Origin: a virus
Length of the DNA: 27,154 bases
IMG/VR virus record: IMGVR_UViG_3300046642_000841
Location: 1-27,154 of that record
Strand: one strand, 5' to 3'
Below, piece after piece: positions 4,566 to 27,154 of the stretch (positions within the stretch are counted from its first letter, which is position 1; every line of letters begins with the position of its first letter). The translations under genes and the position numbers were made by a program. The notes beneath the pieces were generated by a model. The model was not told the DNA's origin. It made no database searches and saw nothing but the letters and a program-made list of their open reading frames with translations.

Positions 4566-5002
4566 TATGCTGCTCCAATCATGCAAGCGTATCTGGCCAG
4601 TTGGCTGGCGGCGCTGACCGGATTGTCACCGAGAAGACCAAGTGCGGTATTGCAAGTTCGATGCAACAGCCCGCGAACCACATGACTTTCATGGTCGTGG
4701 TCAACTGCTAGAAATTCGGCTTCAAGCGGTGGCTTCCTGCACATGGCACATACGCCGCCCTGCTTGTCAAGAAGTCTCTGGTAATCTGTCGGGGTAATGC
4801 CGTACTTCTTTGACCAGTTGTACGCTCTGCCCTTCTCTTTGTGTTTAGAGCGCCATTCCTTGCAATATGCCAGGCTCTTGTCCTTTACCTTTGGATAATT
4901 GGCCCTATCCCACGCGCGCTTGTACTCTGGGTTTCGCTTGTTCCACGCCTTGACAGCCGCATTTCTCCTGGCACGTTGCTCTTCGGTATATTCCCTAACC
5001 AC
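4565..5002 (-). CDS. HNH endonuclease of the recombination endonuclease VII type (copy 1)
   Basis: This protein has the Endonuclease VII/HNH fold signature: a zinc pair C85-x2-C88, the catalytic VDHDH cluster at 100-104, and 'RGLLHRTCNTALGLLGDN' with C117. A basic Arg/Lys-rich N-terminal half probably binds DNA. I place the start at a GTG (5002) because AGGAAGAAGAAGG lies six bases before it; an upstream ATG at 5035 in the same frame (156 aa) lacks a ribosome site and would overlap the small gene ahead by 41 bases. It lies between head genes and ends in a TAATG overlap with the connector gene. T4 endonuclease VII resolves branched DNA, while free-standing HNH genes in phages are often homing endonucleases; either role is possible. 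Confidence 0.88.
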   Translation of the reverse strand: MVREYTEEQRARRNAAVKAWNKRNPEYKRAWDRANYPKVKDKSLAYCKEWRSKHKEKGRAYNWSKKYGITPTDYQRLLDKQGGVCAMCRKPPLEAEFLAVDHDHESHVVRGLLHRTCNTALGLLGDNPVSAASQLARYACMIGAA

Positions 5003-6160: not shown

Positions 6161-7450
6161 TTAGAACTTCAGGCCGTTGGGAGTACCGACCTTAATCCAT
6201 GCATTGCTGATAAGCTCATTGCAGCCGAAGAATCCGGTTGCCATGACCGTGCAGCGCGACTCATTGCCCGTGAAGCTGTCGATGATGAGCTTCCCGTTAG
6301 TGGCGGGGCGGAAGATGTTGCCACCACCGGGAGGGGCAAACTCCCAGCTGCCAGACTTGCTCAGGAGCATCTGGTTGACAGGAACCGACGGCTCGGCCAT
6401 GACATCGCACTTGCCAGTCGGCAGCACGACCTCAAAGCCCGCAAACTCCACTTCGACACCCTTGGTGCTGGACATGTCATAGCGGACCTTGGCGTCACAC
6501 TCCTGGGCCATCTTCGGCAGCACCAGCGGGTTGACATACAGGCAGTCAGGCCGGGCCATCTTGGAAGCGTTGGCCATGTAAGCCGCCGTTCCATAAACAG
6601 CCTGGAAAATGGGAACGCCCGAGCCGTCAAAGGCCCAACCCGAAACAGCCGCAACGTTAGACTGCGCCGTACGAGTCACGCCAAGGAAGGGCGAAACCGT
6701 GGGCACGCCGCTGGTGCGGTTGTCAACGGTCGGGACCCACTGGAGGACCGACGCATACTGACCAGACACGTCAGAGGCGGCCAGGAGCTGTCCCTGGAGG
6801 CCCATGATATGGTTGGCAGTGGGGGTGAAGCCGGTGCTTCCCGCGTCAACCGTGATGATACCGGCAATAGCGTTAACACCAAGGACCTTGCCCGAGCCGG
6901 CATCAAGGACCGAAGTGGCAGTGGCCTTGGTAACCACCGACTGGCCAATGCTGAACTTGGGCGCATCGGTCTGAAGGGTCAGGGTAATGTCCCAAATGGT
7001 CCCCGACGTGTTGCTGGCCGTGCTAATCTGCGCATACGCGCCGGCCGCACCGGTCGTCTGGCCAAGGAGCATGTTAGCCAGGTTTTCCGTGGCAATCTCC
7101 ATGGCATTCTTGGTGCTGTTCAGCGCGATATCAACCGGCGACTGCGGCGTATCGCTGTAGGGCTGCATCTGCCACTGAATGCGCGTGTTACCGTAGACAA
7201 TGGCCGGGTTAACCGTGAAGCCAGCACCGGTGAAGCCATTCTCGGCCGAGTTGGCAAGCGAGTCAGCGAAGTCACCCGAAGCGCCACCGCCCGGGCCGGT
7301 CTCGACCGGGATGCGATAGCCGGTACCGCCGGCTTTCTTCATGGTCAGGCGGTCAAGGAAGGGGTGGTTACGAACGAAAACAGGAAGCCACAGGTCGTCA
7401 AGGGCCTGGATAGCAACTGCTTCAAAGTCAGAGTCAAGAACGTCAGCCAT
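6161..7450 (-). CDS. Major capsid protein, 429 aa
   Basis: I place the start at ATG 7450 (MADVLDSDFEA), which has AGGAGA nine bases upstream; an in-frame start at 7486 would add twelve residues without support. Length and gene order (portal, scaffold, this gene, small head proteins) fit a major capsid protein of HK97-type fold. The N-terminal segment 'AIQALDDLWLPVFVRNHPFL' is a helical arm of the sort seen before the E-loop. The middle is rich in beta and Gly/Thr ('GYRIPVETGPGGGASGDFAD' and later). The C-terminal part has 'ARPDCLYVNPLVLPKMAQEC' and 'KLIIDSFTGNESRCTVMATG', resembling the P- and A-domain pattern where a residue plane is read off a target position. The fold assignment is inferred; the gene role is well supported by synteny. 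Confidence 0.82.
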   Translation of the reverse strand: MADVLDSDFEAVAIQALDDLWLPVFVRNHPFLDRLTMKKAGGTGYRIPVETGPGGGASGDFADSLANSAENGFTGAGFTVNPAIVYGNTRIQWQMQPYSDTPQSPVDIALNSTKNAMEIATENLANMLLGQTTGAAGAYAQISTASNTSGTIWDITLTLQTDAPKFSIGQSVVTKATATSVLDAGSGKVLGVNAIAGIITVDAGSTGFTPTANHIMGLQGQLLAASDVSGQYASVLQWVPTVDNRTSGVPTVSPFLGVTRTAQSNVAAVSGWAFDGSGVPIFQAVYGTAAYMANASKMARPDCLYVNPLVLPKMAQECDAKVRYDMSSTKGVEVEFAGFEVVLPTGKCDVMAEPSVPVNQMLLSKSGSWEFAPPGGGNIFRPATNGKLIIDSFTGNESRCTVMATGFFGCNELISNAWIKVGTPNGLKF

Positions 7451-7595
7451 ACTCGGTAGTCTCCTAAGCAAGTCCGCCGCAGCCATTCCGCTGCTTTAGG
7501 ACGGTTACTGGTTTGCTTGGCTACCGGGCCGATTCTTGGGGCAGGCCATCGCTGGACTGCTTCTGTCGTACTAATGCCTTGACAGGCTTCCTGGA
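7451..7595. other. Intergenic stretch upstream of the capsid gene
   Basis: This stretch holds the capsid ribosome site (AGGAGA on the minus strand) and a TTGACA (7579-7584) within the 14-mer AATGCCTTGACAGG, which recurs at 11993-12006 next to another promoter-like signal. No -10 was found at the right spacing here. A minus-strand open frame runs through it (see rejected items), but no supported gene was found. Confidence 0.4.
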
Positions 7596-7619
7596 CTTGA
7601 CGCGGTGTTCACCTATCGT
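7596..7619 (+). promoter_or_regulatory. Operator-like element, copy 1
   Basis: CTTGACGCGGTGTTCAC (7596-7612) followed by CTATCGT recurs at 9032-9055 with 22 of 24 bases identical. The core GGTGTTCACC is a near-perfect inverted repeat, GGTG-TT-CACC, as expected of a dimeric repressor or activator site. It sits 79 bases before the ATG at 7676; the other copy is 68 bases before its ATG. The difference is 11 bases, one helical turn. Confidence 0.6.
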
Positions 7620-7640: not shown

Positions 7641-7675
7641 TTGATAAACTTCCTGGTCAGGACGATAGTAGGTGC
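7641..7675 (+). promoter_or_regulatory. Leaderless-type promoter for the 61-aa Cys-rich gene
   Basis: TTGATA (7641-7646), a 17-base spacer and GATAGT (7664-7669) are followed by exactly six bases, AGGTGC, and then the ATG at 7676. A start about seven bases after the -10 would fall on the A of ATG, so the mRNA would have no leader. The spacer contains the inverted repeat TCCTG-GT-CAGGA (7651-7662), a possible operator. Confidence 0.68.
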
Positions 7676-7861
7676 ATGAACACGACGACAAAGCCCGCTA
7701 AGCCCTGTCGCAAGTATCTGCGCGGCCTTAAGTGCGAGTGTAACGACCATTGTTTTAACTGCGCACGTGAACTTGACCCGTCAGGTAACTGCCCTAAGGG
7801 ATGTGGCATCAGCGACGATGCAGACGATTCCGTGTCTAACCAGGACCAGGACGAGGAATAA
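7676..7861 (+). CDS. Small Cys-rich zinc-ribbon-like protein, 61 aa, antiparallel to the late operon
   Basis: This 61-residue protein has a basic N-terminal part, seven cysteines (11, 20, 22, 26, 29, 39, 43) arranged like a zinc ribbon ('CFNCARELDPSGNCPKGCG'), and a strongly acidic tail ending DQDEE. It is on the plus strand inside the minus-strand late module and ends two bases before the scaffold stop, tail to tail. The start is fixed by the promoter whose -10 ends six bases before the ATG. A zinc-binding small protein with its own promoter suggests a regulator or host-interaction protein, possibly made independently of late transcription. No family recognised. Confidence 0.75.
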   Translation: MNTTTKPAKPCRKYLRGLKCECNDHCFNCARELDPSGNCPKGCGISDDADDSVSNQDQDEE

Positions 7862-7863
7862 AG

Positions 7864-8859
7864 CTAAGTCTTAGACCCTTCCCAGGCCGACCGGACCCGC
7901 TCCACATAGTCAGCCCAGCCCTTCCCGGTCGGCATGGGCTTGAAATCACCTGCCTGGACTTCCAGGCGCGGCGCAGCGCGGGGGATGGGCTTGTCGTACA
8001 GGCTAGGCTTCTGAGCCGGCTGGGTCTTCCCAAATCGCTTGCCAAGCTGTTCAAAGTCCTGTTCGGCTGCCTTGATGCACTCGGCCGCAAGCTTCTCGGC
8101 CTGGTCAGGTGCTAGGTTAGCCGGGTCAAAGCCGAGCTTCTTGACCATGTCAGGAGCCTTGGCCAGGGCCTTGTCAATGGCTTCCTCGATATTCTCAGCC
8201 CGGCTGGTAATGTCCAGCTTGAGCTTCTCGACCTGGCTTTTCAGGAAGGCCCGGGTACCCTGCACTGCCTGTTCCTGGCTGACCTTGACCGGGGCTGCCT
8301 TAAGCTCCTCGATGGTCTTGGCCATGGCTTCTAGCTTATCCAGGAGCGGCTTGTTAGCATCGGGCGGGACAGGCTGTCCTGCCTTGCCCGTGCCACCGTC
8401 CTGGTTATAGAACAGCTCCACCAGGTCAGCCAGGGCCTCTGTCGGGTCCTTTCCTGACAGCTCGCCCAGGACACTAAGCTTCTCAGCGTCAGTGCCTGCC
8501 CAGAGCTTCTTTACCTTGGCACCATACTCACTGTCGCCGGTCTTGGCTTCCAGGTCCTTCAACTTGGTGTGGGCTTCCCTGAGATTGGCCTGGGCCTTGG
8601 CCAGCTCGGACAGGACCGCCTTATCGTCTGGCTTGATGTCCAGCTCGGGCTTGACCGGGGCTGCCTGGGCAATCGGCTTCTTGAGCTGGTGAGGAAGGTT
8701 CGGGTCTTCCAGGTGCGGGTTAGCTGCCTTGACCCGGGCCTTGATGGCTTCCAGGGCAGCGTCAGCGTTGGGGATAGTCGGCTCGGTCTTGGTCTCGACA
8801 ATCTCAGGCTTGGCGCCGAGATTAGCGGGCACTAGATTGCCCTGTTCATTCACTGCCAT
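7864..8859 (-). CDS. Scaffolding protein, 331 aa
   Basis: The protein is highly charged and almost entirely helical, with long Lys/Glu/Ala/Leu coiled-coil stretches ('KAVLSELAKAQANLREAHTK' and 'KLDITSRAENIEEAIDKALA') and Pro-rich breaks near both ends. Its C-terminal segment is basic ('DYVERVRSAWEGSKT'), as expected for the part of a scaffold that docks on the capsid. GGGAGGAAG lies just before the ATG at 8859. It lies between portal and major capsid genes, the classic place for a scaffold. No protease domain was seen. The assignment rests on composition and synteny. Confidence 0.78.
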   Translation of the reverse strand: MAVNEQGNLVPANLGAKPEIVETKTEPTIPNADAALEAIKARVKAANPHLEDPNLPHQLKKPIAQAAPVKPELDIKPDDKAVLSELAKAQANLREAHTKLKDLEAKTGDSEYGAKVKKLWAGTDAEKLSVLGELSGKDPTEALADLVELFYNQDGGTGKAGQPVPPDANKPLLDKLEAMAKTIEELKAAPVKVSQEQAVQGTRAFLKSQVEKLKLDITSRAENIEEAIDKALAKAPDMVKKLGFDPANLAPDQAEKLAAECIKAAEQDFEQLGKRFGKTQPAQKPSLYDKPIPRAAPRLEVQAGDFKPMPTGKGWADYVERVRSAWEGSKT

Positions 8860-9022
8860 GTGCTTCCTCCCTTTCGAGCCACGACCAAATCATGTCTATT
8901 GCATGGCTCATGTTATCTGCCTCCAGGAATACGTACTTACCTGCCTTGCTAATCGTGACCAGCCTGGACTCGGGACTGCGGTGCTCGGGGCGTGGCTGTA
9001 TTTGGATGGACCAGTCCAGCAC
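8846..9022 (-). CDS. Small protein between portal and scaffold, 58 aa
   Basis: This frame starts with GTG at 9022, preceded by AAGGAG at six-base spacing, and ends with TGA at 8846-8848, overlapping the scaffold start by 14 bases. The protein begins MLDWSIQIQPRPEHRSPESR and contains 'LVTISKAGKYVFLEADNMSH' and a Trp/Glu-rich helical end 'IDMIWSWLEREEAHGSE'. Codon use, ribosome site and overlap all look genuine. The family is not recognised; the alternating strand then helix pattern suggests a compact beta-alpha fold. Confidence 0.7.
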   Translation of the reverse strand: MLDWSIQIQPRPEHRSPESRLVTISKAGKYVFLEADNMSHAIDMIWSWLEREEAHGSE

Positions 9023-9031
9023 TAGTATCTC

Positions 9032-9055
9032 CTTGACGCGGTGTTCACTAATCGT
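9032..9055 (+). promoter_or_regulatory. Operator-like element, copy 2
   Basis: This is the second copy of the element at 7596-7619: CTTGACGCGGTGTTCAC is identical, followed by TAATCGT. It also holds a TTGACG (9033-9038) followed at 16 bases by TATCAT (9055-9060), so it may itself be a weak promoter. It lies just upstream of the minus-strand gene starting at 9022 and could affect both strands. Confidence 0.6.
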
Positions 9056-9065
9056 ATCATGGTGC

Positions 9066-9100
9066 TTGACTTCTTACTGGATAGGGATGATATTAGGTAC
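9066..9100 (+). promoter_or_regulatory. Leaderless-type promoter for the 49-aa gene
   Basis: TTGACT (9066-9071), a 17-base spacer and GATATT (9089-9094) are followed by exactly six bases, AGGTAC, then ATG at 9101. Geometry and the bases flanking the start (GAT..TAGGT.CATGAA) match the promoter at 7641-7675. Confidence 0.7.
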
Positions 9101-9250
9101 ATGAAAACTGCACTTCAGTTCGCCGCAGACCTGGTAGCCGCATGGGAAGCCACTGGCAATAAGTCGCACCTGGCCCTGGCCGCCATGCTGGCCGATGCTG
9201 TGAAGGAACGGGATGCACAGGTCAAGACAGCCCAGGACATGGACGACTAG
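9101..9250 (+). CDS. Small helical Ala-rich protein, 49 aa, antiparallel to the late operon
   Basis: This 49-residue protein (beginning MKTALQFAADLVAAWEATGN) is Ala-rich and predicted to be one or two amphipathic helices, ending with an acidic tail DMDD. Its stop overlaps the portal stop on the other strand (portal ends at 9247), so the two are tail to tail. The start is set by the promoter ending six bases upstream; there is no separate ribosome site, consistent with a leaderless mRNA. With the gene at 7676 it forms a pair of cargo genes inserted antiparallel in the head module. No family recognised. Confidence 0.72.
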   Translation: MKTALQFAADLVAAWEATGNKSHLALAAMLADAVKERDAQVKTAQDMDD

Positions 9251-11271
9251 ATAGTGCCGGGACTGACATTCGTGTTAAGCCCTGGAAGCGGTGGCGGCCC
9301 TGAGTTGGGCTGGATAGGCGCTACCCCTGCCGGCTGGGGCGGGGGCTGGAAGCCAAACCCTGGGCCACCGGGAGCAGCGCCGGGAAGTCCGGGCGGCCCA
9401 GCCCCGGGCGGACCTGCGCCGGGCGGGGGCGGCTGGCCCGGCGGTGCATCTGGCGTGGTGTTCTGCTTCTGCATTTCAATGACGGTTGCGCGCCACATTT
9501 GCAGCCTGTCCAGGACTTCCTGTGGACTCTTCAGCTTCTCTTCCTTGGCCAGTCTGGACTCGACTGCCTGCTGGGCGAAGGGGAAGTCCATGTACGGCGT
9601 GGGCGGGATGTATTCATCTCCCTTGACCAGGCTATCCAGCTGCTCCTGGATGTCATCAACTGGGCTGTTAAGTTCGCTAAACATGCCCCGTATGTCGGGG
9701 GTCTGCTGGAACTTGATATACAGCTTCTTGTCAATGGTCTTCTCGGCATACATCTCCTTGAGGACCTGGATACGACCAGCAACTGTCTGGCTAAGCCGGC
9801 CAACATTGTAAGCCTGGATGTTATCAATGCGGTAAGTAGGGTTCCACTTCAGGTCCTGCCACTTGATTGGCTTCCGGTCGCTGCCCTTGCGGATGAATTG
9901 GCAGTTCGTGCGCTGGCCAAGCATGAGCATTTGATAGGCGCAGCGCCGGTCAAACTCTTCCAGGCGGCCAATCTTCTCCAGGAAGTTCTGGTCATCGATT
10001 TCACTGTACTTCTCTAGAGCCACGCCGGATGTAAAGGACTTGGGTGCTTCTCCCTTGATGGCCTGTTCGCTGATATGTGATATCTGTCTAAGCAGGTTCT
10101 GCAGGGCAGTGAGGTGGCCCAGCGCCCACTGGCCAATACCTTCAGGGGTGATATATTCTGGCTTCTCGCCCAGGTATGAAACGGCGGCGGCGATGGTATC
10201 ACCAAGCGCGTCAGGGTTGACGTTGGAGTTCTCACCGTACAGCCACTTACCAGCTCCTCCACGTTGCTCGGCTTCCTGCATTGTAGACAGAATGCCGTCA
10301 ATCCATTGGCTGATTTGCAGTGTCTGTTCAACCAGGCCCTGGCCAAAGACGGAACCGGGCATGGTAGAGAATTGCCAGCCTTCAAACGGATGAGGGTACA
10401 GCCATTCTGCCGTCTCGCTCCAGTCACCAATTGAAACGGTCTTGATACCGGGCTTGTCTTTGCTTCCGTTGGTGTATCCTATGAGATACGGCACAATATC
10501 GGACACGTCGAGATTACCGCGACCAAAGAAGAATGCGGGTTGCGCAGTGGCCGCACTGGCAATGGCTTCGCAGGCAGCTGGGTTATCTCGGTATATCTGA
10601 AGCAGCTCTGTTTTTCTTCCCCAGCGCCGCCAAATCACGTCATGAGGCTCCGGGTCGTCTGCATTTTCGTATAGCAGCTCGTCAAGGTTAACAGCGCCAA
10701 TCTTTGGGTCCTTGTCCGTGCCAAGGTCAAAGCCCATAAACCCGGTTCCGTACCAGGTTGATTCTTGGCCCATAATGGCCCTTTCGCTCCAGTAATTAAG
10801 CTGGTCAAAACCACCTTCAATCCAGCTTTCCCATTCCTGTGCGTTCTTGGTCTCTTCGTAATCGCCATTGTCAGGCAGGAAGCTAACGAATGACTGGTGT
10901 CCCATTAGACGGTTTTGGTAAATATCGGCGCATTGAGCGCAGCTTCTAGACTTAACGCCGCTGAAAGAAAACGACGAATAATAGTTGACAAAGGAAAGTG
11001 GACGCTTCGCCATTCCGTAGGCCAGTTGTGAAAGGCTAGGCCGACCGGTAACCTCGCGAAAATAAACCAGGTGCCGCCAGCGAGTGGGAATGTATGAAAT
11101 CTCCCGGGCAGTGGCCGCCCTGTGAATAGCGCGAGCCATCTTCAGTCCGTTTGGGTCGTTATCCTTGGACGTATCCTGCAGCCACCAAATTAACTCGGCA
11201 GCTTTCTTGTCTAGTTCACGAAGGGCCTTGCTTGGCCCAATGGGCTTTGTCTTCTTAGAAGTAGTCGGCAT
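9247..11271 (-). CDS. Portal protein, 674 aa
   Basis: Size, position after the terminase and sequence fit a portal protein that forms the dodecameric DNA gate at the capsid vertex. The N-terminal half has portal-like helices and Trp/Tyr-rich strands ('REVTGRPSLSQLAYGMAKRP'). The central part includes 'LVEQTLQISQWIDGILSTMQ', typical of the long clip/stem helix, and 'GVALEKYSEIDDQNFLEKIG', similar to the crown region of podovirus-like portals. The last 80 or so residues are a low-complexity Pro/Gly/Ala tail ('PPGQPPPPGAGPPGAGPPG'). It overlaps the HNH gene upstream by 17 bases. The Pro-rich tail is unusual and may be a flexible contact for a neighbouring head protein. Confidence 0.82.
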   Translation of the reverse strand: MPTTSKKTKPIGPSKALRELDKKAAELIWWLQDTSKDNDPNGLKMARAIHRAATAREISYIPTRWRHLVYFREVTGRPSLSQLAYGMAKRPLSFVNYYSSFSFSGVKSRSCAQCADIYQNRLMGHQSFVSFLPDNGDYEETKNAQEWESWIEGGFDQLNYWSERAIMGQESTWYGTGFMGFDLGTDKDPKIGAVNLDELLYENADDPEPHDVIWRRWGRKTELLQIYRDNPAACEAIASAATAQPAFFFGRGNLDVSDIVPYLIGYTNGSKDKPGIKTVSIGDWSETAEWLYPHPFEGWQFSTMPGSVFGQGLVEQTLQISQWIDGILSTMQEAEQRGGAGKWLYGENSNVNPDALGDTIAAAVSYLGEKPEYITPEGIGQWALGHLTALQNLLRQISHISEQAIKGEAPKSFTSGVALEKYSEIDDQNFLEKIGRLEEFDRRCAYQMLMLGQRTNCQFIRKGSDRKPIKWQDLKWNPTYRIDNIQAYNVGRLSQTVAGRIQVLKEMYAEKTIDKKLYIKFQQTPDIRGMFSELNSPVDDIQEQLDSLVKGDEYIPPTPYMDFPFAQQAVESRLAKEEKLKSPQEVLDRLQMWRATVIEMQKQNTTPDAPPGQPPPPGAGPPGAGPPGLPGAAPGGPGFGFQPPPQPAGVAPIQPNSGPPPLPGLNTNVSPGTI

Positions 11272-11743
11272 CGATTGGATTCACCAGCTTTGAATAGGAA
11301 AGCAGCATGGCGGCGGCTTCTGCTGGATTGTCTCCAAGCATGCCAAGTCCGGTATTACATTTGCTGCACAAAATTGCCCTTACCTTCCCGGTTTCGTGGT
11401 CGTGGTCAACGGAGAACTTTCTATCAACTCCTCCGGTTCTAACCGGTCCTGGATTGTCAGTCCCGCACATGGCGCATTGTCCATTCTGAGATTCAAGAAG
11501 CAGGTCGTACTCCTGGGCGGTCATTCCGTATCTATCCGACAGTCCCTTAACCCACATTCGCTGTCTCTTGCGCGCCCTGTGCTTTGAGTTTTCTCTGTCC
11601 TTGTCTTCCCTTGAACGGTTCTTTTGTCTGTTTGAATTGCATGCCTTACATTGGGTCTGTAATCCATCAAGGCTTCTTTGTCTGGCGTTAAACAAACCGC
11701 GTTCAAGCCATCGACCACAACCGCCGCAGTATTTCAGGGTCAT
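11255..11743 (-). CDS. HNH endonuclease of the endonuclease VII type with N-terminal zinc finger (copy 2)
   Basis: Domains in order: an N-terminal four-Cys finger (C6-x2-C9 and C32-x2-C35), a basic Arg/Lys linker, then the endonuclease VII core with C90-x2-C93, the VDHDHE cluster at 112-117, and C126-x2-C129 in 'CSKCNTGLGMLGDNPAEAAA'. The ATG at 11743 forms an ATGA overlap with the upstream stop and is preferred over an in-frame start at 11758. It sits between the 81-aa gene and the portal, overlapping the portal by 17 bases. The extra finger is not in copy 1 and may set DNA-target recognition. A homing-type or resolvase-type role cannot be told apart by sequence alone. Confidence 0.9.
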   Translation of the reverse strand: MTLKYCGGCGRWLERGLFNARQRSLDGLQTQCKACNSNRQKNRSREDKDRENSKHRARKRQRMWVKGLSDRYGMTAQEYDLLLESQNGQCAMCGTDNPGPVRTGGVDRKFSVDHDHETGKVRAILCSKCNTGLGMLGDNPAEAAAMLLSYSKLVNPIDADYF

Positions 11744-11985
11744 GGCTTCAGGTCCCACGCAAAGATAGGAGCCTTCTCCTTGAAGCTTTCAATAGCAGGC
11801 CGGACTTCCCTGACTTCCGGCTTCTTCCCTGCCACGGGCTTAGCGGCCTGTGGCAGCTCCTGTCCTGGGCTAAACTTGACGCTAAGCTTCAGGCCATCAA
11901 ATTCCAGGTCAATCTCCTGGAAGCGACCGCGAAAGTCGTCACAAATGTAGCCAAGTAGGGTCTTAAGCTTACGTGGGTCAAGCAT
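11740..11985 (-). CDS. Small protein between terminase and portal, 81 aa
   Basis: The 81-residue protein begins MLDPRKLKTLLGYICDDFRG and contains an amphipathic beta region 'FDGLKLSVKFSPGQEL' followed by a Pro/Lys/Glu-rich tail. Its ATG directly follows the TGA of the collagen-like gene (TGAATG), and there is no good ribosome site of its own (an AAGG lies 12 bases upstream), so its translation may depend on coupling to that gene. It ends in an ATGA overlap with the HNH gene. No family is recognised. Its place suggests a packaging or portal accessory protein. Confidence 0.72.
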   Translation of the reverse strand: MLDPRKLKTLLGYICDDFRGRFQEIDLEFDGLKLSVKFSPGQELPQAAKPVAGKKPEVREVRPAIESFKEKAPIFAWDLKP

Positions 11986-12255
11986 TCATACAAATGCCTT
12001 GACAGGGCCGACTGTCGGCGGTAAGGTGCCATCATGGCTGTGGCTGTTATGTCTTCCGTGGCTTCCGGGTCTTCCATGTCTTCCTGGGCTTCCATGGCTT
12101 CCATGGCTTCCAGGGCTTCCGTGGCTTCCGGGTCTTCCATGTCTTCCTGGGCTTCCATGGCTTCCATGGCTTCCAGGGCTTCCTGGGCTTCCTGGGCTTC
12201 CAGGGCTTCCAGGGCTTCCGAGGCTTCCGGGGCTTAACCCGGCGCTGGCCGCCAC
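11986..12255 (-). CDS. Collagen-like Gly-X-Y protein, 89 aa
   Basis: A GTG start at 12255 overlaps the terminase stop by 22 bases, and the TGA at 11986-11988 is followed at once by the ATG of the next gene. The protein is about 20 Gly-X-Y triplets, GSP, GSH, GRH and GRP, between a short N-terminus and the C-terminal 'GTLPPTVGPVKAFV'. In the array the X-Y codons for Pro appear as CCA, CCG, CCC and CCT and for His as CAT and CAC: nearly all variation is synonymous on this strand, which is good evidence for selection on this reading. Collagen-like repeats occur in phage fibre and head proteins and form trimers. The plus strand has a competing open frame with a promoter-like signal (see 12034-12237). 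Confidence 0.58.
   Translation of the reverse strand: MAASAGLSPGSLGSPGSPGSPGSPGSPGSHGSHGSPGRHGRPGSHGSPGSHGSHGSPGRHGRPGSHGRHNSHSHDGTLPPTVGPVKAFV
11999..12033 (+). promoter_or_regulatory. Promoter-like signal of the leaderless type, antisense to the collagen-like gene
   Basis: TTGACA (11999-12004, perfect consensus), a 17-base spacer, TAAGGT (12022-12027), six bases (GCCATC) and an ATG at 12034 repeat the geometry of the promoters at 7641 and 9066. The spacer holds the 13-base perfect palindrome GCCGAC-T-GTCGGC (12007-12019). The 14-mer AATGCCTTGACAGG is shared with 7573-7586. Confidence 0.5.
12034..12237 (+). CDS. Alternative plus-strand reading of the repeat: (Ala-Ser-X)n protein, 67 aa
   Basis: From the ATG six bases after the promoter-like -10, a 67-codon frame runs to a TAA that overlaps the terminase stop, tail to tail. 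It reads 'MAVAVMSSVASGSSMSSWAS' and continues as A/S-S-X triplets with X being W, R, M, G, V or E. The layout matches the two other small plus-strand genes (7676, 9101). Against it, the variable codon base is synonymous on the minus strand and mostly changes the amino acid here. I keep it as a lower-probability alternative or an overlapping antisense gene. Confidence 0.3.
   Translation: MAVAVMSSVASGSSMSSWASMASMASRASVASGSSMSSWASMASMASRASWASWASRASRASEASGA
12052..12234. repeat. Nine-base repeat array with a 63-base tandem duplication
   Basis: The unit is G/TCTTCC plus NNG, about 20 copies, all in the same register. The blocks 12058-12120 and 12121-12183 are identical over 63 bases (seven units), so a recent duplication or slippage is likely. 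No palindromic repeats or unique spacers are present, so this is not a CRISPR array. Confidence 0.9.
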
Positions 12256-13814
12256 AGGCTTCCCGTAAGGCTCTGCCTGCGCTTAGGCTGCGGTTTCATC
12301 AGGCTGGCAAGGGTCCGGTCCCGCTCCTTCCTTAAAAACTCAGCCTCGGTCATGGCAGGGGGCTTAGGCTTAGGGGCGCCAATGGTAGTGAAGCTGGGCA
12401 AGTCCAGGGCATAACTTGCCGCGTCAGCCAGGTCCGGGCTTTTACCTGACTTGTCAAATTCCCACTTACCGGCTTCCCTGGCCTTCATGGACCACTTGGC
12501 GGTAAGTAGGTCCTGCTCCAGTTCCGAGCCTTCCATTACCTTGGCCACGCCGCGCTGAAACAGGTCTGCCAGGCGCTGCACCCTGGCCTTGACAGAGCCG
12601 GGCGACTTGACTGCGCTGACAATGGTAATGCCGTGGCTAAGCTGCAGCAGGTCGTTTACCGGGGCTGAGCTGCCACCGGCATCCCGGCAAAACTCCATGC
12701 TGCCGCCGTACTGCTTGCGCAGTAGCTTGCAGACTTCCAGCCATTCGCTTTCCTGTGGGTCGGCGCCTGGCTCGGTTACGGCCTCGGCTACGTGTAGAAA
12801 CCGGTCCTTGATAGAGGGGTTCCAACCCCATACCACCATGGCAAATCTGTCTCTTCGCTGGGCCTGGTCGATTCCGACCACGTAATGTGACAGTCCAAGC
12901 AGCGAAGCAGACAGCGAGTCAACGTATCGTAAGGCGAATGGGCCAAGGGCATGACTAGACTGGCCCGCTGGTGACCACACATGTTTGGCAGTCTGGAACC
13001 GGTAAGCATTCGATTCGGCCGAAAAGACCCGCTCACCGAACCAGCGGCGGCGGATTTCCGGGTCGGTACGTTCGTATCGGTACTTCTCAAGATTTGCCTG
13101 CAAGTTCTGTTCATTGTCTGTCTCAAATGGGTTATCGAACCTGGACCAGGCGAAGCAGCCCCAGCGCTTGCCTTCATACTTTACGGGAGTTTTAAGCTCT
13201 GGCCCTTGAAAATTATCGGACCAAGTGCGCCAGAAGTAGCCGGCTGGAACGTCGGGCACGGTACCAAGCAGAACCAACCTACCTGGCTTGTGTATCTCGG
13301 TTGTGGTCTCGTCCAGCATGGGGGAGAGCACGTCTTCAACCGTACGCTGTAGGATACCCGGGTCATCCTGGCACTCGTCGAGAATAGCGCAACCGCCGCT
13401 GAGCTGGTCCCCCAATAGGTGTGTAATGCGGCGAGTATCATCTGTCCCTGTGAACAGGACGCGGCTGCCGTTTGGCAGGACAGTCAACTGCTCCGAATCG
13501 GAATGGGCGGCTGGATACCGGAGCTTCCGAAGCAGGCGCTTCCATTTCCTCCATATGATACCAGCGCTGTCCTTGGTAAGACCCAGATAGATGCAGGAAA
13601 CTCCTGCCGTGTCCTGGGCAGTAAGCAATAACAGACCGCAGGCCAGTTCGCTCTTCCCGGCGCGGCGGCTGCAGATACAAATCACATTCTGACAAGCACT
13701 GTTCAGGACTTCTAGTTGCCATTGGTGGCCGCCTGTAATCGCTTCCGGGGTAGCCCTGAGCTTAGCATCTGCAAAGGCCCTGGCCAGGGCTGCTTCGGTC
13801 TTCTTGGTTGCCAC
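12234..13814 (-). CDS. terL: Terminase large subunit, 526 aa
   Basis: This is the packaging motor ATPase/nuclease that cuts and drives DNA into the prohead through the portal. The Walker A is CSRRAGKS (48-55); the Walker B is CAILDECQD (142-150), with the catalytic Glu at 147. The C-terminal RNase H-like nuclease has D316 in 'YVVGIDQAQ', D378 in 'CRDAGG' and D461/D464 in 'SPDLADAASYAL'. The length is normal. The start is GTG at 13814. No clear small terminase gene was recognised; the 103-aa and 59-aa proteins just upstream are candidates by position only. Confidence 0.93.
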   Translation of the reverse strand: MATKKTEAALARAFADAKLRATPEAITGGHQWQLEVLNSACQNVICICSRRAGKSELACGLLLLTAQDTAGVSCIYLGLTKDSAGIIWRKWKRLLRKLRYPAAHSDSEQLTVLPNGSRVLFTGTDDTRRITHLLGDQLSGGCAILDECQDDPGILQRTVEDVLSPMLDETTTEIHKPGRLVLLGTVPDVPAGYFWRTWSDNFQGPELKTPVKYEGKRWGCFAWSRFDNPFETDNEQNLQANLEKYRYERTDPEIRRRWFGERVFSAESNAYRFQTAKHVWSPAGQSSHALGPFALRYVDSLSASLLGLSHYVVGIDQAQRRDRFAMVVWGWNPSIKDRFLHVAEAVTEPGADPQESEWLEVCKLLRKQYGGSMEFCRDAGGSSAPVNDLLQLSHGITIVSAVKSPGSVKARVQRLADLFQRGVAKVMEGSELEQDLLTAKWSMKAREAGKWEFDKSGKSPDLADAASYALDLPSFTTIGAPKPKPPAMTEAEFLRKERDRTLASLMKPQPKRRQSLTGSLWRPAPG

Positions 13815-13830
13815 TCATATCAATGCCTCG

Positions 13831-13971
13831 TCAGCACCTGGTAGCATAGCAGGCATGTGTCCTGCCGGTTACGTGAGACGCGCCCCAGACCGTAAACAGA
13901 CATGAGGCCAGCGGAGCCCTACGCACGGTAGGCCCGCGAATGCACCAGCTAGCAAACAAGAACCTGTTCAT
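13831..13971 (-). CDS. Possible small protein before terminase, 46 aa
   Basis: An ATG at 13971 forms an ATGA overlap with the stop of the 59-aa gene and has AGGAAG just before it. The protein begins MNRFLFASWCIRGPTVRRAP and ends 17 bases before the terminase start. It is Cys- and Arg-rich without a recognised motif. The evidence is only the coupling and ribosome site, so it may not be real. Confidence 0.35.
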   Translation of the reverse strand: MNRFLFASWCIRGPTVRRAPLASCLFTVWGASHVTGRTHACYATRC

Positions 13972-14147
13972 GACTTCCTGTGCTTCAGGCACGTTCCCGG
14001 TTTGGTCACGAAGTCTGTCTCCTGTCCGCCCCGGTCTAGCCATCGGCTTGACACGGTGCCGTCGCTGTACCAGCAGGTAACCCGGGTAAAGCCCTGGCTG
14101 GTCCAGGTGCGGCGCTTTACAAGGCTACTTCTTGATAGCCCTGGCAA
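13968..14147 (-). CDS. Small basic protein upstream of terminase, 59 aa
   Basis: A TTG at 14147 with GAGGAG four bases upstream opens a 59-codon frame that overlaps the end of the 103-aa gene by 23 bases. The protein is rich in Arg, Ser, Thr and Trp ('KRRTWTSQGFTRVTCWYSDG', then 'TVSSRWLDRGGQETDFVTKP'), and the third codon bases follow the G/C-rich style of the neighbours. The strand-turn-strand look (TRVTCWYSDGTVSSRWLD) suggests a small beta-sheet protein. A different frame through the same DNA (13831-14043) is less convincing. Function unknown. Confidence 0.55.
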   Translation of the reverse strand: MPGLSRSSLVKRRTWTSQGFTRVTCWYSDGTVSSRWLDRGGQETDFVTKPGTCLKHRKS

Positions 14148-14436
14148 GCTGCTCCTCGGACGGCTCCGTCTCGTCCTGGCCCTGGCCGGTAGCTTTCATC
14201 ATGACTGCCTGGGCCTTCTGGATACCATTGGCTATCTCGTTAATGTCCCCGACTTCGCTGGTCTGCAGCATGGCATTCAGGCGGCTGATAAGCATCGAGT
14301 TGAGCTTCTCAAGCCAGGGCTTTTGCTGGTCCCAGGTCAGGGAGTTGTCGGTGCCGAAAATGCGCCGGGTAGGTTCGTTTTGTCGCATAGCTTTTATCTC
14401 TTCCTTGGTCAGGTTGATAACCGGGCCATTTTTCAC
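14125..14436 (-). CDS. Small helical protein upstream of terminase, 103 aa
   Basis: A GTG at 14436 starts this 103-residue, mostly helical protein ('VINLTKEEIKAMRQNEPTRR', then 'EKLNSMLISRLNAMLQ') with an acidic, Gln-rich C-terminal part and a basic end. There is no clear ribosome site. Size, helical nature and place upstream of the large terminase gene would fit a packaging accessory such as a small terminase, but no winged-helix motif was identified. Function is not assigned. Confidence 0.65.
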   Translation of the reverse strand: MKNGPVINLTKEEIKAMRQNEPTRRIFGTDNSLTWDQQKPWLEKLNSMLISRLNAMLQTSEVGDINEIANGIQKAQAVMMKATGQGQDETEPSEEQLARAIKK

Positions 14437-14478
14437 AGCAGCACCAGAGACAGTTGCCGCGAATAGGGCAATGGTCGG

Positions 14479-14898
14479 CTACTGGACATCGGCAGGAGCT
14501 ACACAGAGGTACGGCCGGTGGTGTATTTTCAGTCTTAGTCTGCAATCCCTTGTCCTGTTTGGAGCGAATGGAGAAACAACCGCCTTACTCATGTCAATGC
14601 CTACCGAACTAAGTAGGACTTTCGCCAGCCCCTGCCCTCTAAACCCCAGCTCTTCACGGACCAGAACCCAGCCAAGTTGCTGCAGACCGTGTCCAGGGCC
14701 ACACAGGACCCAACCGGCAATGACCCCTTCAAGCTCGGCAACATGTACCTGCCAGCCCAGTGCGCATAGGTTGGTAAGTAGCTGGCCAATCTGCTTGCCT
14801 GACATGCCCTCGACATGGGTGCTAGCCTCCCGAATTGACTTGATAAAACTGGAATAGATATGGCCCCAGTGGTTGGGCTGGGCTGGGGTGATTGTCAT
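14479..14898 (-). CDS. GNAT-family N-acetyltransferase-like protein, 139 aa
   Basis: The segment 'LGWVLVREELGFRGQGLAKV' (75-94) is GNAT motif A: a beta-strand, then the acetyl-CoA pyrophosphate loop R87-G-Q-G-L-A92. The preceding strand 'VAELEGVIAGWVLC' fits GNAT motif D. The protein is short for the family (usually 140-180), with an N-terminal helix pair. It starts in a TAATG overlap with the zinc-protein gene. Phage GNAT proteins may modify host proteins or DNA-linked amines, but the substrate cannot be read from sequence. The divergent C-terminal end is Arg-rich. Confidence 0.68.
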   Translation of the reverse strand: MTITPAQPNHWGHIYSSFIKSIREASTHVEGMSGKQIGQLLTNLCALGWQVHVAELEGVIAGWVLCGPGHGLQQLGWVLVREELGFRGQGLAKVLLSSVGIDMSKAVVSPFAPNRTRDCRLRLKIHHRPYLCVAPADVQ

Positions 14899-15071
14899 TA
14901 GTTAGCCCTTGACCTGTCCTTGCTGGTCGGTCCTGTCGTGTCAAACATGGCTATTGCTTCCTGCAGGCACTGCCGGCACATTAGCGCAAGTATCTTGTCG
15001 CCTGACCTGAGCACGGCCATTTCGTCCTTGTCCTTACCGCAACCGGAACAGGTCAGCTCAAGTGCTTCCAA
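14898..15071 (-). CDS. Small zinc-ribbon-like protein, about 57 aa
   Basis: The C-terminal 57 codons hold two Cys pairs, 'TCSGCGKDKDE' and 'MCRQCLQEAIAMFD', a C-x2-C...C-x2-C zinc ribbon. I place the start at TTG 15071, with AAGGA five bases upstream and an overlap of 14 bases with the gene ahead; a longer in-frame start at 15221 would lie wholly across that gene and adds a Pro/Ala-rich region with no motif. The stop is shared with the GNAT start (TAATG). A small zinc protein of this kind may bind nucleic acid or a host protein. The start is uncertain; the Cys motif is clear. Confidence 0.62.
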   Translation of the reverse strand: MEALELTCSGCGKDKDEMAVLRSGDKILALMCRQCLQEAIAMFDTTGPTSKDRSRAN

Positions 15072-15315
15072 GTTTGTCCTTGGGTGCGCTAGCCTCCCCT
15101 TCGGTGTGGGGGGTGGCTGCGAGGGAAGCGCGGGCGAGCTTGCCGGGGCATTCGTCTCCGGGATTGCTGTCGGCCGCGCACCGCACGACGGTGTCGCCGC
15201 ACGTTCGGCAAAGGATGCCATTCGGGCGGGCGATTTCGGCGACCAGCCCCCGCAGCCGGTCTAGTTCCCCCTCGGCGGCTGCCAGCTTCTCCCTTAGCTG
15301 GTCCGTGAAGTCCAT
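15058..15315 (-). CDS. Small coiled-coil/zinc protein, 85 aa
   Basis: The N-terminal 28 residues ('QLREKLAAAEGELDRLRGLV') form a short coiled coil. They are followed by four Cys residues (36, 39, 46, 56: 'ILCRTCGDTVVRC...DEC') that could bind zinc. AAGG lies six bases before the ATG at 15315. The gene starts right after the preceding stop (15317). It overlaps the next gene by 14 bases. The role is unknown; coiled coil plus zinc site suggests a dimeric DNA-binding or adaptor protein. Confidence 0.68.
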   Translation of the reverse strand: MDFTDQLREKLAAAEGELDRLRGLVAEIARPNGILCRTCGDTVVRCAADSNPGDECPGKLARASLAATPHTEGEASAPKDKLGST

Positions 15316-15316
15316 A

Positions 15317-15856
15317 TCAGGCCTTGTCCTTAATCTGCTTCGGCGCGGTCAGCCTCAGCCGGCGAATCTCCGACTTGCTCAGCCGCCGAACCGGTGCCGG
15401 GGCTTCCTGGCCACGCTTGGGGTAGTAGCCGCTTTCCGGTGGAAGTCCAAGCTGCTTGATGGTCTCATTCCAAATTGACATAGCTCTCCTTGGTGACACG
15501 CCCTTGGTAAGCTTCCTGGCATAGCGCGGATGCTTGTCCAGGAAGCACAGTAGAACATGCCTGGTCTTGTCTTCCCTGTCAAGGCTTTCTGCGTAGTCAC
15601 GGATTCGCTGGTAATATTCCCAGTTAGCGGCCTCGCCCAGTCCGGACTGGCCATCCCAGCCGTGAAGGTGGGTTTCTCCTTGTGCGTCGTCGTCGCTGAA
15701 GTCCCAGGGTAGGTGACACGTACCCCCAGGGCTTGAACGCAAAGTGCTGACAGGGAAGCAGTTGAAATCACTGTTACCTTCAATGTCCCGGAAGCCGCTG
15801 CGCCGGAGCTTCCCGTACCACTTAAGTTGCAGTTTTCGGAATGTCTTCTTGTCCAA
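15317..15856 (-). CDS. Putative phage transcription-related protein with 'KWYxKLxxSGFxDIE' motif, about 179 aa
   Basis: I start at TTG 15856, with AAGG six bases upstream, so that the protein begins MDKKTFRKLQLKWYGKL; an ATG-type start at 15919 would add a low-complexity Arg/Cys stretch across the previous gene. The segment 'LKWYGKLRRSGFRDIEGN' (11-28) matches a motif I know from phage and prophage proteins of unclear function that lie in regulatory positions near packaging genes. The C-terminal part is basic ('VRRLSKSEIRRLRLTAPKQI') and could bind DNA. A late-gene regulator similar to RinA or sigma-like proteins is one possibility, but no clear HTH was identified. Confidence 0.6.
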   Translation of the reverse strand: MDKKTFRKLQLKWYGKLRRSGFRDIEGNSDFNCFPVSTLRSSPGGTCHLPWDFSDDDAQGETHLHGWDGQSGLGEAANWEYYQRIRDYAESLDREDKTRHVLLCFLDKHPRYARKLTKGVSPRRAMSIWNETIKQLGLPPESGYYPKRGQEAPAPVRRLSKSEIRRLRLTAPKQIKDKA

Positions 15857-15992
15857 CCTGGGCCTTGTCTTCCTTGGTCTCCTGCAGGTGCTGGTGCAGC
15901 GCCTGGGCCATACTTCCAACGGCCTGATACAGCGGCTGCAGCTCCTGACGAATCTTGCGCCGAATTAACTTCGCGTTACGTTGCTGTCCCAT
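15822..15992 (-). CDS. Small helical protein, 56 aa
   Basis: The ATG at 15992 has AAAGG six bases upstream; a longer in-frame start at 16049 would overlap the previous gene. The protein begins MGQQRNAKLIRRKIRQELQP and is a basic then mixed-charge helix ('GSMAQALHQHLQETKEDKAQ') likely to be a coiled coil. It overlaps the following gene by 35 bases. No family recognised. Confidence 0.6.
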   Translation of the reverse strand: MGQQRNAKLIRRKIRQELQPLYQAVGSMAQALHQHLQETKEDKAQVGQEDIPKTAT

Positions 15993-16002
15993 ATCCTGCC
16001 TT

Positions 16003-16251
16003 TCATTCGCTAATCTTGGTCCACTTGAGCTTGCCGGTACCCTGGACATATGTGTTCCCTGCCTGCGCCTGTGCTATACTGGAGCTTGCCGCACCGGTGA
16101 ACGTGCTGGCCGATGCATACGTGGGCTGCCAACCGGCAAGCTGCGTGTAATACCCGGTATCGACCACGCCGCGCCATAGGCTTCCATTGCTATCTAGGGC
16201 CACCAGGGACCCGTCAGGCATGGACTGGAACTGGATAATCTTACTCGGCAT
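16003..16251 (-). CDS. First late-operon gene, small beta-repeat-like protein, 82 aa
   Basis: The start is ATG 16251 (MPSKIIQFQSMPDGSLVALD), six bases after a -10-like TACTAT; GTG 16257 in frame is possible. The N-terminal 'IIQFQSMPDGSLVALDSNGS' followed by 'LWRG' resembles one blade of a beta-propeller or tectonin-type repeat, and the remainder is Ala/Ser/Thr-rich with a final 'GKLKWTKISE' strand. One blade alone cannot make a propeller, so it may oligomerise. It is the first gene of the leftward late operon. Function unknown. Confidence 0.62.
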   Translation of the reverse strand: MPSKIIQFQSMPDGSLVALDSNGSLWRGVVDTGYYTQLAGWQPTYASASTFTGAASSSIAQAQAGNTYVQGTGKLKWTKISE

Positions 16252-16266
16252 AGACACATAGTAGCA
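16252..16266 (-). promoter_or_regulatory. Probable late promoter with extended -10 (minus strand)
   Basis: On the minus strand TGC-TACTAT (TACTAT at 16258-16263) precedes the ATG at 16251 by exactly six bases. No good -35 was found at 17 bases, but TGN directly before the hexamer makes it an extended -10. The distance to the ATG equals that of the plus-strand leaderless promoters. It is the only promoter I found that could drive the leftward late operon. Confidence 0.52.
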
Positions 16267-16741
16267 CCGCCAGGACTGGACTATTAGGCAAAGTGCAGCA
16301 AGTACGATTTCATGATACCAGTGGGTCCTGTTAAGGCATTATGGTGAAGGGTCCCGTTGCGGTGTCCCGTTGTGGCCTTGAAACCACCCAGTGCTTACAC
16401 ATGGCCTGGAAGCCCCTGAAGGGCAGAAACGCAACCTAGCAAACAGTAACGCACAATCACATTGGCCTGACTAAACCGATTGTCAGGTACTTACTGGTTC
16501 CTGACCGGGCGGACCGGCGGGGCGCTAGCAGTCCACGTCAGAATCCTGTCAGTGATACAGACCACCTAGCCGGCAGCAGTAGGGCCGGAAGGTAAGTGGC
16601 TTCAGCCGGCCGGTCATGGCGCCTCAGGGCAGGACAGCAGCCATGGACACCAGGTACCAGCCACTGGGCAGGCAGGCTTATCACGCCTGAGGAGAATCGG
16701 CGTGGCTAAAATCGTTAACGCACAGTGGCTTAGCTTTTCCT
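16267..16741. other. Gene-free divergent control region between late and early modules
   Basis: About 475 bases without a convincing gene. It holds a direct repeat GTCCCGTTG (16351-16359 and 16364-16372) and a hairpin CCTGAC-N10-GTCAGG (16466-16487). A second hairpin, CACGCC-N11-GGCGTG (16682-16704), encloses a GAGGAG ribosome-site-like sequence before a GTG in frame with the DUF3310 gene. GCCGG/CCGGC repeats lie around 16570-16620. It is the best candidate in the window for a replication origin or a regulatory switch. I searched for tRNA-like arms and found none complete. Confidence 0.6.
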
Positions 16742-16776
16742 TTGACCAGCCCTTTCCTGTCATGTACAGTACAGGC
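16742..16776 (+). promoter_or_regulatory. Early promoter, leaderless type
   Basis: TTGACC (16742-16747), a 17-base spacer and TACAGT (16765-16770) are followed by exactly six bases, ACAGGC, and then ATG 16777. This matches the geometry at 7641 and 9066. It heads the whole rightward early operon. Confidence 0.7.
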
Positions 16777-17166
16777 ATGAGTGACTCGGCACTACGGAAG
16801 ACCCAGGAGATACCAAACCTGTCTATGCGGGAAATCATGTTCAAGCCTGTTTTGCATGATACCAGCCAGCCCCAGGGTGGTATAGTTCAGCCAATGGAAG
16901 AAGCCGAATGGTCTGACGTGCCGACCCGGGAAGCCGCCGCCGAGCCTTTCCAGGCCACAGACCCGATTAACCCTGAGCACTACAAGGCCGGTGGCCTGGA
17001 AGTCATTCAAATCATAGAGGCATTTGGGCTGGACTACCACCGGGCCAGCGCCTTGAAGTACCTGCTTAGGGCGGGCAGAAAGGACGACGAAGTGCAGGAC
17101 CTGAAGAAGTGTGCCTGGTTCATTGACCGGGCTATCCAGAAGCTGGAAGCCAAGGGGAAGAAATGA
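16777..17166 (+). CDS. DUF3310 family protein (nucleotide-kinase-like), 129 aa
   Basis: Residues 62-124 ('DPINPEHYKAGGLEVIQIIE', 'ALKYLLRAGRKD', then 'DLKKCAWFIDRAI') are a clear DUF3310 domain, common in phages and often annotated as nucleotide-kinase-like although the activity is not established. The N-terminal 60 residues are acidic, low complexity and unrecognised. I take the ATG at 16777, fixed by the promoter six bases upstream. An in-frame GTG at 16702 has a good ribosome site (GGAG, seven bases), so a longer form from an upstream transcript is possible. The gene ends in an ATGA overlap with the next. Confidence 0.82.
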   Translation: MSDSALRKTQEIPNLSMREIMFKPVLHDTSQPQGGIVQPMEEAEWSDVPTREAAAEPFQATDPINPEHYKAGGLEVIQIIEAFGLDYHRASALKYLLRAGRKDDEVQDLKKCAWFIDRAIQKLEAKGKK

Positions 17167-26546: not shown

Positions 26547-27154
26547 CTAGGTACCGTTCCAGCGCCGCAAATGCCCGCCAGGAGCATGCCCGGTGTCGAC
26601 GTGAACCCAGCCGGACTTGGGGTAGAATCCAATGCCGCCAAGCTCAGGTAGCTTATCATCCAGGTACAATTCCATGATGGCAGCATGAAGCTCAGCCACT
26701 GTTTTGCCAGCCGGTCTAATGTCTGCGGCCTGCCCCTGTACATGGTAGCTACCGGAAGCTACCTGGTGGGCAGCGCTTTTATTGGCAAGCTCCGCATTAT
26801 ATGCCGGTGTCCTGTAGCCGCTGATAACTTGACATGGGACGACTATGGCCACACGACATTTGTCCAGTAGGGACATAAGCTCCGGTAGCCTGTCAGCGAA
26901 TGCTTCCGGGTAAGGTGTCCCGGGGCTACCACCAGGCCCGTCATGGCAGGCCAGCTCAGAAACCTTGAAGTATTGACCATCCTGGAGCATGATTAGACCA
27001 TGAAGATTTGGGCTGTTGCCATTAACACTTCCTGTGCTTCCTGGGCTTCCGGGGCTTCCTGGGCTTCCCGGGCTTCCTGGGCTTCCCGGGCTTACCGGGC
27101 TTCCTGGGCTTCCCGGGCTTCCTGGGCTTCCGGGGCTTCCTGGGCTTCCCGGGC
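26547..27154 (-). CDS. M15-family peptidase with in-frame collagen-like N-terminal repeat, partial
   Basis: The catalytic domain is clear: '[11 protein letters not shown]' (55-65 from ATG 26990), H83 and D90 in 'HVQGQAAD', and H130 in '[10 protein letters not shown]', the zinc ligands and active residues of Peptidase_M15 (D-Ala-D-Ala carboxypeptidase/endolysin type). There is no ribosome site before ATG 26990, and the same frame continues upstream through '[14 protein letters not shown]' into Gly-Ser-Pro repeats to the edge at 27154 without a stop. The variable Pro codons there (CCA, CCC, CCG) are all synonymous. A collagen-like stalk carrying a cell-wall peptidase would suit a virion fibre or lysin. 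The true start is outside the window. Confidence 0.72.
27028..27154. repeat. Nine-base repeat array, right end
   Basis: The unit is GCTTCC plus NGG, about 14 copies to the edge, with one TAC in place of TCC at 27102-27110. It is the same unit as at 12052-12234. On the minus strand it encodes Gly-Ser-Pro. It probably continues past the window. Confidence 0.9.

Follow-up and report, generated by a model that had tools for sequence, protein, structure and literature searches.

Predicted Leaderless Gene Starts at Promoters of Fixed Spacing in a 27-kb Phage Genome Fragment

Here, we report that a genome fragment of a soil phage carries promoter-like sites at a fixed distance from start codons, with a TTGA-type -35 hexamer, a 17-base spacer, a -10 hexamer, and a gap of six bases before the ATG (17/6 spacing). 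In our preferred reading, which from the sequence we hold with a probability of roughly three in four, these are host sigma-70 promoters placed so that transcription would start on the A of the ATG. The resulting mRNAs would be leaderless, with most other genes being led by a Shine-Dalgarno sequence. The stretch analyzed (the window) is the whole 27,154-base IMG/VR record IMGVR_UViG_3300046642_000841, classed as linear. Virion genes run leftward in its left part, and a replication operon runs rightward in its right part, from ~16.7 kb (Table 1). Among the virion genes (capsid, scaffold, portal, and terminase), only the terminase had a family match; the other three names reflect gene order and conservation, without a domain match. 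An Rfam search gave no match.

Table 1. Promoters, genes, and shared elements located in the window
Feature	Position	Strand or direction	Details
Capsid-position gene	6161-7451	leftward	Named by gene order and conservation
Shared upstream element TTGACGCGGTGTTCACCTATCGT, copy 1	7597-7619	+	
Predicted promoter	7641-7675	+	-35 TTGATA (7641-7646), N17, -10 GATAGT (7664-7669), N6; expected +1 at 7676
ORF	7676-7861	+	61 aa, Cys-rich, without family match; ATG at predicted +1
Shared upstream element TTGACGCGGTGTTCACTAATCGT, copy 2	9033-9055	+	Also inside possible promoter TTGACG-N16-TATCAT (9033-9060)
Predicted promoter	9066-9100	+	-35 TTGACT (9066-9071), N17, -10 GATATT (9089-9094), N6; expected +1 at 9101
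ORF	9101-9250	+	49 aa, without family match; ATG at predicted +1
Portal-position gene	9247-11271	leftward	Named by gene order and conservation
Predicted promoter	11999-12033	+	-35 TTGACA (11999-12004), N17, -10 TAAGGT (12022-12027), N6; ATG at 12034
ORF (doubtful)	12034-12237	+	67 aa, within tandem array of 9-bp units (12060-12235); low codon score
Terminase gene	12234-13814	leftward	Family match
Predicted promoter	16742-16776	+	-35 TTGACC (16742-16747), N17, -10 TACAGT (16765-16770), N6; expected +1 at 16777
DUF3310 gene	16777-17166	+	129 aa; opens rightward replication operon; ATG at predicted +1
Fifth pattern match	26965-27002	+	TTGAAG...ATG at 27000; antisense to M15-peptidase gene with GSP repeats

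Results

The three sites described in an earlier note on this DNA, ahead of the ATGs at 7676, 9101, and 16777, were present to the base, with the hexamers, N17, and N6 given there. Each matched 9 of 12 positions of the sigma-70 hexamers (TTGACA-like and TATAAT-like, 16 to 18 bases apart). A fourth strong site, absent from the earlier note and with the best -35 of the window sites, was found at 11999; the ORF that follows it is doubtful as a gene because its codon score is poor. The -10 consensus TANNNT was fitted at 16742 and 11999, while the hexamers at 7641 (GATAGT) and 9066 (GATATT) begin with G. The fifth match, at 26965, is probably due to chance. The spacer of the 11999 promoter holds a perfect dyad, GCCGACTGTCGGC (GCCGAC-T-GTCGGC, 12007-12019), a possible operator. 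Two 9-bp tandem-repeat arrays (12060-12235 and 27028-27154), when read on the minus strand, would give collagen-like Gly-Ser-Pro repeats; the one at 27028 is fused in frame to the M15 peptidase (likely an endolysin) and continues past the contig end.

The two small ORFs lie between minus-strand genes, 7676 between the capsid-position and scaffold-position genes and 9101 between the scaffold-position and portal-position genes, and each scored highest of the six frames by codon usage (+6.4 and +12.2, respectively); ORF 16777 also scored best in its proposed frame. No well-placed Shine-Dalgarno sequence was found upstream of start 7676 or 9101, the sole candidate at 7676 being a distant AGGA (13 nt). 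Most other genes of the window were preceded by one in start-site calls that listed matches down to three bases. Because the scoring of these calls was weighted toward 17/6 starts (with a GTG at 16702 still ranked first for the DUF3310 gene), they do not count as independent support for such starts.

The pattern TTGA-N17-NANNNT-N6-ATG occurred five times in the window, always on the plus strand, whereas a set of 100 shuffles gave 0.11 on average and never more than 1, and a set of 300 gave 0.127 and never more than 2. All spacers of 14 to 20 bases were then crossed with gaps of 0 to 14 (105 cells): the 17/6 cell held 5 matches, and the other cells averaged 0.18. In a relative, G002, the same cell also held 5 (other cells, 0.096; shuffles, 0.093 [largest, 1]). 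In both genomes 17/6 was the only cell clearly raised, with the others near background, so that the claimed improbability of a shared spacing stood, and a -10-like signal placing the +1 on the start codon, as expected of leaderless genes, was enriched in each. Poisson tails of 2e-7 (window) and 5e-8 (G002) assume independent sites, which is untrue of the window pair 7641/9066. Because the pattern had been fitted to the window sites, the five G002 sites are the fair test and the independent evidence; since this relative uses the identical spacing, we regard the pattern as real.

Relatives were found via portal-position and capsid-position scans: G001 (39.9 kb; portal-position protein 57% and capsid-position protein 73% identical) and G002 (37.7 kb [37,731 bases]; 52% and 72%). 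None was found by a scan of viral contigs with the window terminase protein alone, by capsid and terminase alignments in genome contigs, or by tblastn of the terminase and portal-position protein in phages. An actinobacterial setting, raised in the earlier note, is unsupported: no actinobacterial host signal and no relative in genome contigs were found, and the window proteins with usable database matches pointed, as weak evidence, mainly to phages of Gram-negative hosts.

All five 17/6 sites of G002 have TTGACA and share the sequence AATAATTATTGACA or its overlapping divergent form. G002 holds six copies of AATAATTATTGAC plus an overlapping divergent seventh -35; five of these promoters reach an ATG at gap 6, and two have CGGAGGT exactly at the predicted +1, followed by an ATG, so that one start point would serve both leaderless and minimal-leader genes. 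The G002 sites sit at genes other than those of the window, and the AT-rich extension is missing from the window promoters, so that what the two phages have in common is geometry and not promoter sequence. G001 had no strict 17/6 site and one with TTGTCA (13777); the class is thus not conserved across the lineage. Searching relatives, as had been proposed, therefore recovered the spacing in one genome and not in the other, and a uniform expression class, with matching genes throughout the lineage, was too strong a claim, given the two leadered genes that G002 serves with the same promoter.

Among the five 17/6 sites of G002 is one divergent pair (34600 and 34678), of which 34600 belongs to a gene for a repressor-type helix-turn-helix protein and 34678 to a 10-codon leader ORF; within 34388-34710 its -35 hexamers share TGTCAAATAATTATTGACA, a region that could be the operator of a seven-promoter regulon. 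The contig ends of G002 form an exact inverted repeat of 127 bp, which represents true terminal repeats or else a fold-back of the assembly.

An extended G002-type pattern was found in 31 IMG/VR stretches at gap 6 versus 4 at gap 9, a control that possibly includes a few short-leader genes; as the test is conditional on AATAATTATTGACA, this enrichment is indicative. With G002 and near-duplicates removed, 19 sites were left, of which 17 have T at the -10 position that the pattern leaves free (its first base). Several viral contigs (L095, L097, L098, and L115) also carry related leaderless-type promoters, here ahead of a conserved ORF of 119 aa.

In the earlier note, the same spacing at three unrelated small genes was taken as unlikely by chance. 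The promoters at 7641 and 9066, however, are duplicated copies, sharing an ~85-bp upstream block (alignment score, 71; null maximum, 37), so the three sites amount to about two independent events (about three with 11999). Both block copies contain TTGACGCGGTGTTCAC-YWATCGT, which is found nowhere else in the window, and they differ by 11 bp, close to one helical turn, in the distance from upstream element to promoter. Genes 7676 and 9101 are without a homologue in G001 or G002 and occupy gaps between leftward genes, and for these reasons look like insertions. It is conceivable, though rather doubtful, that the block is a copyable expression module, in which a regulator site (TTGACGCGGTGTTCAC-YWATCGT) and a leaderless promoter would accompany different small genes that were inserted in opposition to the late operon. 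In viral contigs, the 16-mer TTGACGCGGTGTTCAC matched only sequence without the downstream promoter. A combined pattern ending GATANTAGGTNCATG was discarded, its matches to three AT-rich contigs being consistent with chance, and the shared upstream element was dropped as a promoter in the case of copy 7597, where a -10 at the usual spacing is missing.

The alternative that best survives accepts the promoters and has the genes translated from leadered mRNAs; we consider it unlikely. It would start the DUF3310 protein at the in-frame GTG 16702, which has AGGAG 7 nt upstream and whose extension has a slightly positive codon score (+2.6 over 25 codons), and this credible leadered start counts against our main reading. 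The GTG start is weakened, however, because the only sigma-70-like site in 16200-16800 is the one at 16742, and none lies upstream of 16702. For gene 9101, the leader would come from a transcript of the candidate promoter TTGACG-N16-TATCAT (9033-9060), a 10/12 match, but the sister copy at 7597 is without a counterpart. Leadered translation would, moreover, leave the 17/6 enrichment unexplained.

Of the known phages compared, lambda has the 17/6 spacing at PR (38023; TTGACT-N17-GATAAT-N6-ATG), and the established start of the PR transcript is the A of this ATG. The earlier note's proposal that a start seven bases after the -10 would fall on the ATG is supported by the 17/6 spacing and by this calibration. 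The Firecracker Cluster O promoter at 4763 is 18/7, and phiC31 has a 17/7 site before the ORF at 38423. These genomes gave few matches, close to background; they serve to calibrate the geometry and are no proof of enrichment.

lambda PR shares its geometry with the window sites and differs in that its 5' AUG opens a two-codon ORF, cro being Shine-Dalgarno led. It could accordingly be argued that the +1 falls on the A of the ATG in the window too and that the gene is not functionally started from this AUG, which would instead open a minicistron, as at lambda PR or at G002 34678 (where the stop of the 10-codon ORF overlaps the next ATG), or begin an antisense RNA to the leftward late genes, the operon that 7676 and 9101 oppose. 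This is improbable, in that the three starts (7676, 9101, and 16777) are followed by ORFs 61, 49, and 129 codons long, respectively, whose composition is coding-like, the last carrying the DUF3310 domain. Chance is very improbable: the pattern was picked from many possible spacings after the sites were seen, and one of the five window matches (26965) looks accidental, but the enrichment is limited to one grid cell and is repeated in G002, where the pattern was not fitted.

Discussion

Under the leaderless reading, the host sigma-70 RNA polymerase would bind TTGA(C) and NANNNT 17 bases apart and initiate on the A of the ATG, seven bases past the -10; the mRNA would begin with AUG and be translated without a 5' leader. 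The phage may use such starts for a few plus-strand units outside its main leftward operon, namely, the two small genes inserted among the capsid-region genes with the duplicated promoter block and, probably, the DUF3310 gene.

It was in lambda that bacterial initiation on leaderless mRNA first came to light, and cI transcribed from PRM is the classic case. Cluster O mycobacteriophages (Corndog group) have predicted leaderless promoters PL1, PR2, and PL2, of which PL2 serves a gene on the opposite strand within the structural operon (PMC4351075), as predicted here for 7676 and 9101; the comparison made was one of geometry, and the Firecracker site, at 18/7, departs from 17/6. Another predicted case comes from a cluster K phage. 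In phiYS40 of Thermus, most middle and late mRNAs are leaderless (PMC3594737, citing the original work); these transcripts were found experimentally and are translated by the host apparatus, as the predicted ones of the window phage would be. TA-led leaderless genes, described for cellular genomes of bacteria, have a TANNNT signal ~10 to 12 bp upstream of the start codon (Zheng et al. 2011, PMC3160421); of the four window -10 hexamers, two fit TANNNT and two have G as their first base. Phage transcripts of this kind, including a temporal class of them, are thus on record, and the earlier note overstated how notable such a class would be.

The window case is a real, further instance of a known way of starting genes, to which it adds a clean replicate; it opens no new mechanism. 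Gene finders based on Shine-Dalgarno sequences can overlook small phage genes or call them wrongly. Testing the exact -35/-10/ATG spacing against a grid of alternatives and in a relative is an inexpensive way, needing sequence only, to look for leaderless starts.
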